This document shows, piece after piece, positions 15,939 to 22,342 of a stretch of DNA of 35,449 nucleotides. Source of the DNA: Actinomycetota bacterium (GTDB taxonomy: Bacteria > Actinomycetota > Actinomycetes > S36-B12); contig VGBL01000022.1 in the NCBI GenBank assembly GCA_016870515.1, positions 1 through 35,449 on the forward strand, written 5' to 3'. The translations under genes were made by a program, and so were the position numbers. The notes beneath the pieces were generated by a model, which saw only the letters and a program-made list of their open reading frames with translations, ran no database searches and was not told the DNA's origin. Numbering within the stretch: position 1 is the stretch's first letter; every line of letters starts with the position of its first letter.

Positions 15939-16415
15939 ATGTCCGAGACCATGGAGCGACCCAGTCAGGTCACGATCGTCGTCATCCTCATCTGGCTTGG
16001 CTTCGCCCTCACCGTGGCCGGTGCCATTGCCGTCATCCTCGTGGGTACCGGCATCGCAGCCAGCGATCAGGCAGCCGTCGCCGAGCAACTCAAAAACCTG
16101 GACCTTCCGCAGGAGTGGGCGACGACTATCGGCCCGATTGTCATCGTGACCGGCGCGCTCTTCTTCGTCGTGGCGATCATCGAGGCGATTTTCGCCATCG
16201 CCATCGGCCGTGGTAGCAATATCGCCCGCATTCTGTTGACGATTCTCATTGCCATCCGGCTCGCCGGCGGACTGGTCTTCATCCTGACGAGCTGGGGCGC
16301 CAGCTCGTTCACCTTCGGGATCTTCCTCGACATGGGACTCGGCATCATCGTGCTGTTCTTGCTCTTCAACCACGCGTCCAATCAGTTCTTTACTGACCGT
16401 GTAGCACGCGCCTAG
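15939..16415 (+). CDS. Hypothetical four-helix membrane protein
   Basis: A 158-residue protein with four hydrophobic segments near residues 12-36, 65-90, 95-118 and 125-143. Between helices one and two is a short external-type loop containing AEQLKNLDLPQEW. I do not recognise a family. It begins at ATG 15939 with a leaderless-type hexamer in front. It converges on the AbiEi-type gene, with a long hairpin element filling the gap between the two. Confidence 0.7.
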   Translation: MSETMERPSQVTIVVILIWLGFALTVAGAIAVILVGTGIAASDQAAVAEQLKNLDLPQEWATTIGPIVIVTGALFFVVAIIEAIFAIAIGRGSNIARILLTILIAIRLAGGLVFILTSWGASSFTFGIFLDMGLGIIVLFLLFNHASNQFFTDRVARA

Positions 16416-16434
16416 TCGACCCACCCACCCCACA

Positions 16435-16492
16435 CGATTGCGCTGGGTGGCTGCAATCTCGGTGAGTTAGCAGCCACCCAGCGAAATGGTGC
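16435..16492. repeat. Palindromic element, copy 1 (also a likely bidirectional terminator)
   Basis: An inverted repeat with 18-nt arms at 16437-16454 and 16470-16487 (17 of 18 pair) and a 15-nt loop. It fills the gap between two convergent genes and ends 1 nt from the stop of the AbiEi-type gene. Its reverse complement matches copy 2 at 45 of 58 positions by hand alignment, including part of the loop, so it is more than a chance terminator. Confidence 0.75.
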
Positions 16493-16493
16493 G

Positions 16494-17306
16494 CTAGGCG
16501 CCCTCGGCCTGCAGAGCGCGTTGGCGGCTGACTTCCTCGGCCTTGGCGCGACGAAACGCCTTCGGGTCATCGCCGTACTTCGCTAACCCGTCGGCCTCTC
16601 CGATAAGCCGAGCGTCGGGCCAGTAGAAGTCGACTCGGTAACTCATGCCATCAGCTCCTACCAAAGTGTGCTGGAGGAGCGGCATGGGTAGGCCATACAC
16701 AACCATGTAGCCGCGCGACCAGGACTCCAGCGGTGATTCCGCCCGGGGGTCGACGTAGAGGGCCTCTGGCAACGACAGACTCTTGGCTCGCGCCGTGCGG
16801 GCCGGCCGCAATCCCATGCGTGCCAGGTCGACCGCTGTGTGCAATAGCCCAGTGATCGGCATACCTTCCACCGTGAGGAAGTCGTCCGGCCAGACATCAA
16901 CGGGGCGAAGAATCACGCGGGGGAGTTTGCGCCCGAAGTCAGTCATCGAGTCCCGAAGGACAAGGACTTCCGTCAACTCGTGCTGGAAGCCCGCGTGACT
17001 CGCAGCGATGAAGGTCATGTCATGAAGTTGTCCCGCGATGCGGCCTGCGACGATCCCGGGGACGTCGCCCAAGGACCTCAGCGCCGTGCGTGCGAGGTCA
17101 GCGGGGGCCTCCGAGCGGTGCTCACTGCGAACGGTGAAGAGTCCTCGCTTGACGACGTCGACGTAGCCCTGGCTCGGTGCCGCGCGCAATTGGCTACGGG
17201 TGATCCCCATAGTCGCAAGATCAGCGTGCGTGAATGGGACGTGCCCGAATCTGCTGGTGAATAATTCACGTGTGTGCGCTGTTGCCGTGTGCGCGTGACT
17301 GGGCAT
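16494..17306 (-). CDS. AbiEi-type antitoxin-like / Vsr-like nuclease-fold protein
   Basis: A 270-residue protein. Residues 10-65 form a winged-helix domain typical of AbiEi-type antitoxins (FTHADLATMGITRSQLRAA, then GYVDVVKRGLFTV). The C-terminal third has a Vsr/DUF559-like nuclease-fold pattern: SPLESWSRGYMVVYGLP, then YRVDFYWPDARLIGEADG and KYGD, with spaced acidic residues E, D, D and E that resemble a metal-binding site. AbiEii, the usual toxin partner, is absent, so this is a lone gene. Such solitary proteins are frequent in actinomycetes and their role is not established. The gene is bracketed by two copies of a palindromic element. A CATGGT hexamer sits 6 nt before the ATG, hinting at leaderless transcription. 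Confidence 0.75.
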   Translation of the reverse strand: MPSHAHTATAHTRELFTSRFGHVPFTHADLATMGITRSQLRAAPSQGYVDVVKRGLFTVRSEHRSEAPADLARTALRSLGDVPGIVAGRIAGQLHDMTFIAASHAGFQHELTEVLVLRDSMTDFGRKLPRVILRPVDVWPDDFLTVEGMPITGLLHTAVDLARMGLRPARTARAKSLSLPEALYVDPRAESPLESWSRGYMVVYGLPMPLLQHTLVGADGMSYRVDFYWPDARLIGEADGLAKYGDDPKAFRRAKAEEVSRQRALQAEGA

Positions 17307-17364
17307 GGCAGAACCATGGCCGAGATCAGGAAAAAGCCGCGCTCCTTATCCACAGCCCCCTCCG

Positions 17365-17427
17365 CGCACCATTGCGTCCACTGGCTGCTAACCGACCGCG
17401 ATAGCAGCCACTCAACGCAATGGTGCG
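17365..17427. repeat. Palindromic element, copy 2 (also a likely desaturase terminator)
   Basis: An inverted repeat with 25-nt arms at 17365-17389 and 17403-17427 (22 of 25 pair) and a 13-nt loop. It starts 3 nt after the stop of the desaturase gene and 58 nt upstream of the AbiEi-type gene's start. It is related to copy 1 in opposite orientation: both begin GCACCATT and share GGCTGCTAAC and GCAGCCAC blocks. Confidence 0.75.
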
Positions 17428-17430
17428 GGG

Positions 17431-18369
17431 TTAGTCGACCCAGCCGAGACGCTGCTTGAGAGCGGGTCGCTTCTCCTCGAAGCGAGCGGCCTGCTTCTCG
17501 AGGCCGTCGATGAAGTCGACGAGTTCTTGGCGGGCGATCTCGCCGTCGGGCCCTAGGTCGCTGCGCTCGAGGACCTTCCAATAGCGCAGCACCGGCATGA
17601 GCACCTCGTCGACGTGCTGGCGGATGTCGTAGATGCCAGCGACGGCGATCTCCATGGCCTTGCGGGTGAACCCGTCGATGCCGTGACCGGGCATCGCGAA
17701 GTCCTTGACCGTGTCGGTGACAGCGCGCATAGCGGCATCGGGAGCGAGATCGAAGGCCGCGGCAAAGACGTTGCGGTAGAAGACCATGTGCAAGTTTTCG
17801 TCCAGCGCGATGCGCTGGAAGAGCTGCTCGGCGAGCGGGTCGCCCGTGGCAGCACCGGTGTTGCGATGCGAGACGCGCGTCGCCAACTCTTGGAAGGACA
17901 CATAGGCGACGCCGTGCAGCAGCCCGGGATGGATCGCCTGGAAGCCCTCGGTCATGTGAACCATGCGAGCGTTTTCGAGTGCCACCGGATCCACCGCACG
18001 AGTGACGACAAGGTAGTCGCGTATCGCGACCGCGTGGCGGCCTTCCTCTGCCGTCCAGCGGCCTACCCATGTGCCCCAGGCTCCGTCGAGGCCGAAGATC
18101 CCGGCGATCTCGCGGTGATAGCTGGGCAGGTTGTCTTCGGTGAGCAGGTTGACGATCAGGCTCGAACGTGCGGCATCGCTGTAGCGCTGCTGCTCCGGTG
18201 ACCAGTCCTCGCCACCGAGGAAGGCGAAGTTGCGCCCTTCGCTCCACGGCACGTAGTCGTGGGGCATCCACGGCTTGGCCATCTTCAGGTGGCGCTCCAA
18301 CTCGGTCGTGACGACCGGCTCGAGGTCGATGAGGAGCCGGACGTTGGGCGAGTCAGCCAGTGCAGTCAC
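17431..18369 (-). CDS. Acyl-ACP desaturase (diiron)
   Basis: A 312-residue soluble desaturase of the stearoyl-ACP desaturase (DesA) type. It inserts a double bond into acyl carrier protein-bound fatty acids using a diiron centre, oxygen and reductant. The ligand motifs are all present: E78 and H85 in ENLPSYHRE (the first Glu just before N80), EEGRH at 108-112, E161 in FQELATRVSH and DENLH at 190-194. The start is GTG 18369. No reductase or ferredoxin gene is next to it. The gene is followed after 3 nt by palindromic element copy 2. Mycobacterial DesA1/DesA2 are the closest known group by motif layout. Confidence 0.87.
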   Translation of the reverse strand: MTALADSPNVRLLIDLEPVVTTELERHLKMAKPWMPHDYVPWSEGRNFAFLGGEDWSPEQQRYSDAARSSLIVNLLTEDNLPSYHREIAGIFGLDGAWGTWVGRWTAEEGRHAVAIRDYLVVTRAVDPVALENARMVHMTEGFQAIHPGLLHGVAYVSFQELATRVSHRNTGAATGDPLAEQLFQRIALDENLHMVFYRNVFAAAFDLAPDAAMRAVTDTVKDFAMPGHGIDGFTRKAMEIAVAGIYDIRQHVDEVLMPVLRYWKVLERSDLGPDGEIARQELVDFIDGLEKQAARFEEKRPALKQRLGWVD

Positions 18370-18448: not shown

Positions 18449-19588
18449 CTAGGAGCCGGGTAGCGAGGCGTATCGGTAGCCGTTGCGCTCGGTTCCGAAC
18501 CAGGAGTTGATCGTCCGGTCGAACCACGGCCACATGGTGTCGGGGGCGTTCCATCCATAGGGCGCCCCACGGCCCGGCTTGTAGTGAGATCCACCCTGGA
18601 GCTCCCAGGCCGCCCAGATGCGATCGACATTGGCGTGGTGGAGGAAGAAGACGGGATCGTTGGGCGAGGTGTTGTAGGCCATGGTGCCTTCGCTCACCTT
18701 GTTGCCGGTCTTCCAGATTCCTCCGACGTAGATGTGCACGACGTTGTGCATGACGTGTGGCGAGCCATCCGCCTGGGACTGGTTGACCCATCCCGAATCG
18801 CACTCCGCCGCCTTGGGCTCGCGCCAGCCCTCGAGACGGTTGCGGAACGACTCGGAAAGAGGGGAACGCGCGTTGTACGGGGAGTGGTCGTAGAGGTGCC
18901 CGTCAAGCGTCTCCTGGACGTCGGCCGCGCTAGGGAGTTGCACGGGATCCGGCAGGAATGCCGCGAAGTTGCGCACAAGGTAGGGCTTGGGGGCGGTCTG
19001 ACCCTCCAGGAGCACGCCCGGGTCCTGGATGGTGATCTTCCACTGGCCCTTGCGGAACGGGCCCGTCGTCACGGCCCAGTCCTGCTTCGGATTGCCGTTG
19101 CCCCCCATGAAGTCGTTGGCGAAGACGGCGGCGGTGGATGCGGGATTGGTCCAGTCCCAGTAGGGAACCGTCATGCTGGGATCGCCACTCATCTGCTGAA
19201 TCATCTGATCGAACCTGTGTAGATACTCGCGGTGCCAGGGCAGGAAAGTGGGCGAGTTGTGCGCCGCTCCCGCCCAGTTCTTGGACTGCTTCCAGCTGAC
19301 CTCGCAGTCGAAGGCATCCCTGTGCCACGCGACGAACTGGTCGTAATAACTGATCGAGGGGTCCCGCGGTGAGGGCATGGTCTTCGCCTTGAGGATGGCC
19401 GCGGTGAAGGCCGCCTTTTGAGCGGGCGTCAGGTCCTTGACGTCTTAGCGCACCAGGACGGTGACATCACCACTGGGTGCGCCGCCGCGCAGCGCGGACA
19501 GGGCCGGAGTCGCGAGGCCCACGGTGACGAGGATGGCGGCACTGATGGCCACCGCGATGGCGGCCTTGGGCACGCGGGGTGAGGTCAT
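18449..19588 (-). pseudogene. Secreted tyrosinase interrupted by an in-frame TAA
   Basis: One continuous frame from ATG 19588 to the stop at 18449 encodes a type-3 copper tyrosinase (o-diphenol/monophenol oxidase), broken by a single TAA at 19445-19447. Upstream of it are a signal peptide and VTVLVR; immediately downstream is [19 protein letters not shown], the usual start of the mature domain, where homologues generally read R-K/R-D-V. All six copper ligands follow: [30 protein letters not shown] and [13 protein letters not shown] shorter protein from ATG 19378 (309 residues) would keep the copper sites but lose export. A TACCCT hexamer 6 nt before ATG 19588 supports the longer start. It could be a nonsense mutation, a sequencing error or, less likely, readthrough. 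Confidence 0.8.
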
Positions 19589-19594
19589 GCGCAG

Positions 19595-19614
19595 AGGGTA
19601 TTCCCCTATGGGGA
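19595..19614 (-). promoter_or_regulatory. Tyrosinase -10 hexamer with overlapping CsoR-like palindrome
   Basis: On the minus strand TACCCT (19595-19600) lies 6 nt before ATG 19588. Directly upstream, 19602-19614 is the perfect palindrome TCCCC-TAT-GGGGA. G/C-tract palindromes of this shape are the usual operators of CsoR-type copper sensors. Placement between -10 and -35 would let a repressor block transcription of a copper enzyme. Confidence 0.45.
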
Positions 19615-19738
19615 CTCCGGAAGGGAAATCGGTCAGTCCCCGTAGCGTGTGCCCATGGCTAGCGAACCGGCCGGTGTGAGGTGCGGAAAATCCCAGGCTC
19701 GCATGGCGAGGGGGCGCTCCAGCGGTCATGATGGTTCC

Positions 19739-22342
19739 ATGTTCAAGCGTGCCGTCCTGGCCGTGGCCCTCCTCGTCGCCTTGATGCCGAGTGCACCCTC
19801 GCTGGCGGCGCAGGCCCCACTGTCTCCCACCACGGCGATGCCGCGTGCGTCGGGAAACTACACCCTGACGCCGCTTCTGACCGGGGGGATCCTGGAGACC
19901 AAGCGCACGGTGCAGCTCAACCAGGAGATCGACGCGCACGACATCGATGCGGGCGACTGCACTCCCTACGCAACGGGTTCGGTGGCCGTCAACGACACCA
20001 TGAGAGTGGAAGGGCTTGTCGACCTCGGCTACGACACCGTGCCTAGGGCTAACCCGCAGCCCATGTATGCCGCACTTCCCGCGACCGACTACTCACTCAG
20101 CGGCTCCTATGTGACACGGGGCGGCGCATACGCATGCAAAGGCGATCAGCTCTATCTCAGCCAGGGGGGCACCTGCTCCGGTGCGGTCGCCGCATTTGGC
20201 CCGGGCGCTATCTACGAGCCGACGGCCGATGCCTACTGGGGAGGGGATCAGTACGTCCCCGGCGAGAGCGGACGTGTGGTGGGGGCTGCCACGTCTGCCA
20301 ACGGCATGGACTGTGTCGTGCAGGATGGTGAAGTGCCGTGGGCGCCGGGCGCGTCGTTCGCCGAGTACGAGCCTGAAGCGCGACTTAACAGCGCGTTCGT
20401 GCGGCCGGCCACACCTCTTGAACTGGATGAGAAGGTGACGAGATTCGACTTGGCCAAGCGAGACACCTCCTGCGCCTACGGTGATATCTCGCAAGGAGCC
20501 CACGCAACGGGCATCTACGCCTGGACGGGGGCAACTGTCGACTACACGTCTGACTCGCGCGCGGCCACGTGCCTGAGCGTGCGCAGCGGATACCAGCAGA
20601 CCACGTTGAAGCGAGCCCTCGTTGTCAATGAAGTGAAGGTCTTCCAGATGACTCCCTCCGGTGACTTCGCAGAGGTGCCACCCACGGAGAAGGTCGTCGA
20701 CGGCAACCAGGTGCGACTGGAACTGCTCATCGAAAACCGCTGGAAGCGCGACATCACCACGGAGGTCAAGCTCTTTGACACCGAGTACAAGCGGCCGATC
20801 GAGGTGGAAAAGGAGGAGAAGAACCCCCGCACGGAGACCTTCGTCGCCGGGGCGCAGAAGAAGGTCACCATCAAGATGCGCACCGACGGCATGGCGTGGG
20901 AGACCCCGGGCAAGCCTGTCGCCTGGCGCAAGATCGGCATCCTGACGGCCTTCGGTGGCGCACGCTTCACTTTGCAGGTGGCTCCGCGCCCGGCCCTGCT
21001 GCTCCACGGCTGGAGATCCAATGCGGCTGCCTGGGACACGTGGCCCACTTTCGTGAAGTCCGTGCGAGATGCCTGGACAGTCCGTGCCGTCACAGGCATG
21101 GACACCGATCCCGTGACGGGCTACGCCATCCAGGTCAATGCCGGCACCCTGAAAGCCACGGTTGCGCAGATCCGCAAGGAGACCGGCGCTGTCCACGTTG
21201 ATCTCGTTGGCCACTCGATGGGCGGACTCATCTCGCGCTGGTACATCAGCAGGCTCATGGGCGGTCCCGCCCAGGATGGTCGTCCCATCGTGCGCAGTCT
21301 CACGATGTTTGGTACGCCCAACCTGGGATCGGACTGCGCGTACGAGGTGCTCGGCATTGGAGGAGCGAGCATGTTGGGCGCGTCGATCTTCGACGAGAAG
21401 TTGGCGGGGGCAGTGGGCAGTTATATCCCCACCTTCCAGTTGACGCCCTTCTACCAGATCACCCAGTTCGCACCGAGCGCACAACCGAAGGCGGGGGTCT
21501 ACTACTCGCATCGCGCGGGCACGCCGCTCCCCGTGTTTCCGTGCGGCCTGCCCGGGCCGCTTGGCCAATCGGGGTGGAACGACGGCCCGGTGGTGCACCC
21601 CTCGGTGATCGGCGGCGGCCTCGGCGGTGCGCAGCTCGCCCCTGCTGACTGGACGATCCACACGAGCATGACGGATGAGCGTAGCTATTTCGACAGTGCG
21701 CTCAACAAGGTTCTCGGCCTGGGACCTCCCGAGGCCGTGCGGCTCGTGCCTGCTGCGCGCTCCTCCATCGGCGTGCGGGACAGCCTTCCCGCGGCGGGAC
21801 CGGTGCCCGGCACGTGGATCGATGGAGCTTCGGCAGATGTGGGCTCGGGCGTGACGCTCAAGGTGACGACGCCCGGTGGGGTCTCGCGCACGTCCGTCCT
21901 TGCGCCCGCCGGAGCCGCGGTGACCGTCACGGATCCTGCGGGCAAGGTGCTGACCACCGCCGAGGGGACCGCCTGGCCGATCGTCGTCCAGGCATCCACT
22001 TCCGCGGGTGAGATCCAGGTCGACGTACAACCGCAGGGGACGACAGGCAAGGTCGGCGTCGCGCTGTCCCTGCCTACCTCTCCGTTCAAGGTGTCGGCAA
22101 CGGCAAAGCGTGCCGGGACGAAGGTCACCCTGACGGCGACGGTGTCCGGGCCAAAGAGCGCCACCGCCCGGGTGCAGGCCATCGTCGGTATGGGTACTCC
22201 GGCCGCCAAGGTCATCACCCTCAAGAGGGCGGGCAAGGCTTACGCTGGCACTGTGACCGTGCCATCGACGACCATGGTGACGATCGCGGTCGCGGCCAAG
22301 GTCGGTGCCGAGCGCCGCGTCACCTTTGCTGCCGTGGACTGA
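19739..22342 (+). CDS. Large secreted alpha/beta-hydrolase (lipase-like)
   Basis: An 867-residue exported protein starting at ATG 19739 with signal peptide MFKRAVLAVALLVALMPSAP and cleavage near AQA. Residues about 30-410 form an N-terminal region of unknown fold containing several cysteines. From about 415 comes an alpha/beta-hydrolase domain: the oxyanion segment LLLHGWRSNAAAWDTW and the nucleophile elbow VGHSMGGLISRWY near residue 491, as in PGAP1/DUF676-type lipases. The final 180 residues are Thr/Val-rich beta-sandwich-like repeats (for example KVSATAKRAGTKVTLTATVS). It probably hydrolyses esters outside the cell. A CATGAT hexamer 6 nt before the ATG resembles a leaderless promoter. It diverges from the tyrosinase gene. 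Confidence 0.8.
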   Translation: MFKRAVLAVALLVALMPSAPSLAAQAPLSPTTAMPRASGNYTLTPLLTGGILETKRTVQLNQEIDAHDIDAGDCTPYATGSVAVNDTMRVEGLVDLGYDTVPRANPQPMYAALPATDYSLSGSYVTRGGAYACKGDQLYLSQGGTCSGAVAAFGPGAIYEPTADAYWGGDQYVPGESGRVVGAATSANGMDCVVQDGEVPWAPGASFAEYEPEARLNSAFVRPATPLELDEKVTRFDLAKRDTSCAYGDISQGAHATGIYAWTGATVDYTSDSRAATCLSVRSGYQQTTLKRALVVNEVKVFQMTPSGDFAEVPPTEKVVDGNQVRLELLIENRWKRDITTEVKLFDTEYKRPIEVEKEEKNPRTETFVAGAQKKVTIKMRTDGMAWETPGKPVAWRKIGILTAFGGARFTLQVAPRPALLLHGWRSNAAAWDTWPTFVKSVRDAWTVRAVTGMDTDPVTGYAIQVNAGTLKATVAQIRKETGAVHVDLVGHSMGGLISRWYISRLMGGPAQDGRPIVRSLTMFGTPNLGSDCAYEVLGIGGASMLGASIFDEKLAGAVGSYIPTFQLTPFYQITQFAPSAQPKAGVYYSHRAGTPLPVFPCGLPGPLGQSGWNDGPVVHPSVIGGGLGGAQLAPADWTIHTSMTDERSYFDSALNKVLGLGPPEAVRLVPAARSSIGVRDSLPAAGPVPGTWIDGASADVGSGVTLKVTTPGGVSRTSVLAPAGAAVTVTDPAGKVLTTAEGTAWPIVVQASTSAGEIQVDVQPQGTTGKVGVALSLPTSPFKVSATAKRAGTKVTLTATVSGPKSATARVQAIVGMGTPAAKVITLKRAGKAYAGTVTVPSTTMVTIAVAAKVGAERRVTFAAVD

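Follow-up and report, generated by a model that had tools for sequence, protein, structure and literature searches.

In the 35,449-bp window (the whole stretch of DNA analysed here), a single gene combining an AbiEi domain with a Vsr/DUF559-like nuclease lies between two palindromes of ~60 nt, and we consider this feature to be, probably, a decayed member of a group of ~1.0–1.5-kb mobile units that share this organisation and are moved by the mechanism described below. The best reading of these units is a REP/RAYT-like palindrome-plus-enzyme system, with an AbiEi-Vsr nuclease in place of the HuH transposase. REP-like palindromes tied to a nuclease-fold protein had been suggested in the initial annotation, and the suggestion is supported by bracketed relatives, by families of solo hairpins that track the nuclease, by a prediction borne out in a second hairpin family, and by insertion of the unit as a whole.

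The window unit

The whole window unit, hairpins included, has been inserted between two convergent genes, one encoding a 158-aa membrane-type protein (15939–16415, forward strand) and the other a fatty-acid desaturase (PF03405; 17431–18369, reverse strand). The site is empty in five genomes of the same genus (G008, G004, G010, G003, and G006), where these two genes converge with their stop codons overlapping (GCGCGCTTAGTCAACCCAGCCGAGG in G008); in the window, 1,005 bp interrupt this site, their ends coinciding with the outer ends of the two hairpins. A 14-nt direct repeat (TAGTCGACCCA[C/G]CC, 93% identity) abuts the outer edges of both hairpins, with the left copy (TAGTCGACCCACCC) at 16413–16426 and the right copy (TAGTCGACCCAGCC) at 17432–17445, inside the final codons of the desaturase gene. 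Direct repeats of at least 13 nt between non-matching flanks occurred in 0.13% of cross comparisons. The initial annotation mentioned neither the 14-nt repeat nor the truncation and internal deletion of the gene (see below). The window unit therefore shows both an empty site in relatives and a 14-nt target-site duplication, as insertion sequences do. Direct repeats of at least 11 nt accompany just 3 of 54 units, so a long target repeat is unsupported as a general rule of insertion, and we do not treat it as a feature of the group. Further along the reverse strand, we noted a tyrosinase-domain gene (18449–19378) with another ORF directly upstream (19445–19939), possibly a split or frameshifted gene.

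The two palindromes, first placed at 16435–16492 and 17365–17427 and described as related by inversion, were confirmed as such by a repeat search of the window. The aligned arms (16427–16494 and 17364–17431, 68 nt) share 79% inverted and 70% direct identity, and both palindromes are individually 86% self-complementary. The left end hairpin (16427–16494) has imperfect arms of ~28 bp and adjoins the nuclease gene at its truncated 3′ end. The right end hairpin (17362–17431), inverted with respect to the left, precedes the predicted start codon of that gene by ~55 nt. Each was also said to sit 1–3 nt from a stop codon, which holds: the left hairpin begins 1–3 nt past the nuclease gene stop, and 3 nt separate the desaturase stop from the right hairpin. 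When folded as single strands, the hairpins gave z-scores of −9.2 and −6.3 against shuffled sequence, with none of 200 shuffles folding as well, and they are the only hairpins scoring at least 13 in the window; independent control DNA of 110.7 kb yielded two hairpins and no matched pairs. These z-scores, and the scarcity of hairpins in the window and control DNA, rule out chance palindromes. The whole-genome search that had been proposed for the hairpins recovered only two real copies in the 2.4-Mb window genome, both flanking the gene (other matches were 14–26 nt with E of at least 0.5), ruling out a high-copy repeat of that genome. No Rfam family came near its gathering score (the two weak matches were to miRNA models), excluding a known RNA family, and T-tract terminator prediction called nothing at either hairpin.

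The only gene between the hairpins (16494–17306, reverse strand, 270 aa) is decayed. Its product shows a weak Pfam match to AbiEi_4, a PADLOC match to AbiEi (E 2.8e-6), and, in its C-terminal half, homology to Vsr/DUF559-like nucleases. Compared to 13 homologues, it carries an in-frame internal deletion near residue 183 (~16757), between LPEAL and YVDP, and has lost its last ~45 residues (GWxVVRWTWDEL onwards) at the hairpin edge. Residues invariant in 37 homologues are retained up to R317, and the protein ends before G325; in the predicted structure of an intact homologue (mean pLDDT 89.5), the tail that is lost here supplies the final strand and helices of the nuclease domain. Given that the window copy is decayed and its protein probably inactive, conclusions about mechanism rest on its relatives. 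The protein found no match in phage records and two weak matches in plasmid records, and the hairpin core matched no viral contig, so we set aside phage or plasmid cargo as an explanation of the unit.

Hairpin-bracketed relatives and solo hairpins

Of 248 Actinomycetota genomes sampled, 98 contain the AbiEi-Vsr family, often with multiple copies each, and its full-length homologues are repeatedly bracketed by matched hairpins, as had been anticipated for relatives of the window gene. Both flanks were available for 84 units; strong hairpins stand at the two sides of 36 of them, and the pair matches in 33 of these 36. Of 26 neighbouring genes used as a control, none had any strong hairpin, and the count of matched pairs was 0 of 26. 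The pairing is more than a coincidence of terminators. Matched pairs are also carried by loci from distant actinobacterial families. Each locus has its own hairpin sequence (e.g., CGTCTGAGTTACCTGAATGGTCGCTAACT...AGTTAGCGACCATTCAGGTAACTCAGACG on both sides of the L079 unit in G038), with a median similarity of 90 within a unit's own pair vs. 16 between units. More than half of the homologues scored (n = 84) are without a strong hairpin pair, through decay, contig ends, or independence. In two genomes assigned to different genera, the units L032 (G013:C23) and L033 (G020:C4) are near-identical together with their flanks, which points to an error in contig binning or to transfer in the very recent past.

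Across 54 units, length ranges from 998 to 1,534 bp and the median hairpin arm is 25.5 bp. The two hairpins are inverted in 29 units, direct in 20, and undecided in 5, so that a fixed orientation of the pair is unsupported. The sole cargo of the sampled units is one AbiEi-Vsr gene, and no classical transposase gene lies inside. The lack of a transposase gene would suit a MITE-like element with palindromic ends, mobilised in trans by an unrelated DDE or HuH/RAYT transposase and carrying the nuclease as a passenger or defence cargo, and the window unit would suit it too, with a target repeat resembling those of DDE insertions and a broken nuclease of its own. Against it, the sampled units all have one and the same gene as their only cargo, hairpin sequence co-varies with that gene (see below), and the mixed pair orientation is unlike classical terminal inverted repeats; we regard this explanation as quite improbable.

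Hairpins of the same families also occur alone. The window family is represented by seven solo copies after unrelated genes in G007, of the same genus, and in their alignment we noted compensatory stem changes, both sides being altered in 12 cells (0 of 500 shuffles). One of these solos, on contig 128, is absent from the same place in G008, G006, G000, and G004. The initial annotation would have been contradicted by hairpins after unrelated genes in a genome lacking any such gene, and G007 partly presents this situation: the seven solos are there and no nuclease bracketed by the window hairpin family was found, the assembly being 88% complete. In these solos (L067–L073), pairing frequently continues beyond the conserved stem for a few bases, into C-rich/G-rich flanks that are not conserved, the paired flanking bases differing from copy to copy. 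A different actinobacterial repeat (L094, VFJZ01000050.1, 480–600) contains the same GCACCATTGCG word as the window family; as it shares this core word but its arms look different, it was not counted as a copy.

In genus g43, the number of solo copies tracks the cognate nuclease. A 56-nt palindrome is found 7–33 times in the eight genomes whose nuclease shares 76% identity or more with the query, other genomes mostly having 0–3 copies (Mann-Whitney p = 2e-6 when grouped by nuclease at 65% identity, with phylogeny not corrected). Related nuclease clades in the genus carry variant hairpins, and the palindrome also matches a Mycobacterium plasmid record. What occupies one conserved intergenic site varies by species, from a unit or a solo hairpin to an unrelated hairpin or an empty gap; at another site, the hairpins belong to different families, that of G447 resembling the hairpin of its own unit. 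At the L187 site, the place taken by the unit in other species holds, in G428, a solo hairpin from the same family. In several g43 genomes (L283, L285, L286, L288, L291, and L293), we also observed a third hairpin family (CGCCGA[A/G]CGTG... / ...CACG[C/T]TCGGCG) at one and the same intergenic position, upstream of the L238-type site.

A second hairpin family was first noticed as solos in G445 and is present in 10 of the 40 genomes of its genus. In line with the prediction, AbiEi-Vsr genes are flanked by it, on either side of the gene in G447 and G430 and to its left in G441; the G445 regions examined showed no matching unit. In 22 aligned solos, the arms are nearly invariant, the loop motif CTCG is invariant, and the rest of the loop is variable, so that each hairpin of this family has an orientation. 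The invariant CTCG occupies loop columns 30–33 (alignment A4; L353–L371) and reads ACTCG in nearly all copies, and a similar AACTCG is seen in the loops of the window hairpin family and of L079.

Units lie in convergent (32) or tandem (16) gene gaps and never in divergent ones, and solos are placed likewise (14 convergent, 13 tandem, 0 divergent), mostly 1–20 nt after a stop codon, a spacing that units share. This placement is what would be seen if the hairpins were ordinary bidirectional terminators of convergent genes, into which the nuclease gene homes, its insertion duplicating the hairpin with no sequence recognition by the protein; the solo of G428 at the L187 site would suit this account as well. 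Against this, the target repeat in the window lies outside both hairpins, five relatives have no hairpin there, and neither window hairpin was called as a T-tract terminator. Plain terminators, moreover, have no need to group into sequence families whose numbers follow a single nuclease clade, or to track its AbiEi part. We consider this account unlikely.

Protein architecture and co-variation with the hairpins

Pfam, NCBIfam, and fold searches of the family returned AbiEi_4, DUF559, MTES_1575, and the AbiEi and Vsr/I-Bth0305I folds. In predicted structures, the N-terminal part of an intact homologue matches the AbiEi antitoxin 6y8q over residues 19–242 (Foldseek E 1.8e-5), and the C-terminal domain of L079 resembles I-Bth0305I (3r3p, Z 13.3), NGO0050 (3hrl, Z 12.7), and Vsr (1cw0, Z 11.0). 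The predicted architecture is thus an AbiEi winged helix and C-terminal domain fused to a PD-(D/E)XK domain of the homing-endonuclease/Vsr fold. Five residues, E250, D282, E293, D295, and K299 (L079 numbering), are invariant in 37 proteins and all kept in the window copy; on the basis of these models, we infer that they are the putative catalytic residues.

Hairpin sequence varies with the protein. At the same locus in G045 and G038, the units have different hairpins, with all four arms altered alike, and over 54 units hairpin similarity correlates with protein identity (Mantel r 0.81, 0 of 2000 permutations), a correlation inflated by shared ancestry. When each part is controlled for the other, the association stays with the AbiEi part (partial r 0.70) and is absent for the nuclease part (partial r −0.01), although the former evolves faster, an effect that can lower the correlation seen for the latter. 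Given this faster evolution and the shared ancestry, we take the co-variation of AbiEi part and hairpin as support, not proof, of recognition. AbiEi antitoxins are known to bind pairs of 23-bp inverted repeats set 3 bp apart, and two such antitoxins do not bind each other's repeats (PMC7319586); both the co-variation and the median arm of 25.5 bp fit this mode of binding. The trans-transposase and terminator explanations each leave either the AbiEi co-variation or the link between hairpin number and nuclease unexplained.

AbiEi antitoxins also repress their own promoters via the 23-bp inverted repeats (PMC7319586), and the upstream palindrome might accordingly be an operator in autoregulation, with the downstream one a terminator matched to it by gene conversion and the solos off-target or regulatory sites. 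This reading leaves the matched downstream copy, the tens of solos after unrelated genes, and the insertion of whole units unexplained, and we find it very unlikely.

We instead favour a REP-like system in which the AbiEi-Vsr protein would bind, cut, and mobilise DNA. The AbiEi part would bind the ~25-bp palindrome arms, either as duplex or as extruded hairpin, with two AbiEi-Vsr monomers per palindrome, and the nuclease part would cut at or beside the hairpin. Repair or copying may then carry units, or single hairpins, into the gaps that immediately follow genes, where insertion would be least harmful, and lone hairpins would persist as REP-like repeats. More broadly, and more tentatively, AbiEi-Vsr could be a new kind of palindrome mobiliser, in which an antitoxin-type module reads the ~25-bp arms and a homing-endonuclease-fold domain cuts, moving its own units and spreading solos in actinobacteria without a HuH or DDE transposase; we rate this possibility at somewhat below even. 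If true, it would account for the very large number of "orphan AbiEi antitoxin" and DUF559 genes that have no toxin, represent a route to palindrome dispersal independent of HuH enzymes, and provide a pairing of DNA-binding module and target with a specificity code readable from natural co-variation.

Comparison with known systems

REP-like stem-loops of actinobacteria, mycobacteria included, have been catalogued for years. The families Myt-1, Myt-8, Cod-1, and Cod-3 (PMC2267715) are, like the hairpins here, dispersed and structured; we found no mobilising enzyme assigned to their spread. Our literature search, with most subscription journals outside its coverage, found no paper on hairpin-bracketed AbiEi/DUF559 genes or containing these hairpin sequences.

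The N-terminal fold is that of type IV AbiEi antitoxins (6y8q; Rv2827c, 1zel), which share the capacity to bind paired inverted repeats. However, no AbiEii nucleotidyltransferase toxin adjoins the gene, its neighbours in the window being those for the membrane-type protein and the desaturase, and the AbiEi part here is fused to a nuclease domain, with palindromes that bracket the gene and are dispersed elsewhere. The AbiEi-Vsr unit is therefore not an AbiE toxin-antitoxin system. The C-terminal domain, in turn, shares its predicted fold and its conserved acidic and lysine residues with the EDxHD homing endonuclease I-Bth0305I, Vsr, and DUF559/MTES_1575 proteins, but unlike I-Bth0305I and Vsr, it lies in a hairpin-bracketed unit and not in an intron or intein, with no mismatch-repair partner seen.

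The closest parallel in organisation is with REP/RAYT systems (TnpA-REP; REPtrons and REPINs; PMC8266576, PMC3116915, PMC2817692). As in these, the enzyme gene is flanked by palindromes in the relatives, palindromes occur in tens of extragenic copies (the window genome itself having only the two flanking ones), and each enzyme lineage has its own palindrome family, with families turning over between species. In contrast to these systems, the enzyme here is an AbiEi protein with a Vsr/EDxHD-fold nuclease and not a HuH/Y1 tyrosine transposase, the palindromes are ~60 nt with ~25-bp arms, and no constant GTAG/CGTC tag adjoins them in the aligned families, as judged by eye. The AbiEi-Vsr units are thus not members of the REP/RAYT group, which they resemble in pairing dispersed palindromes with a dedicated enzyme.
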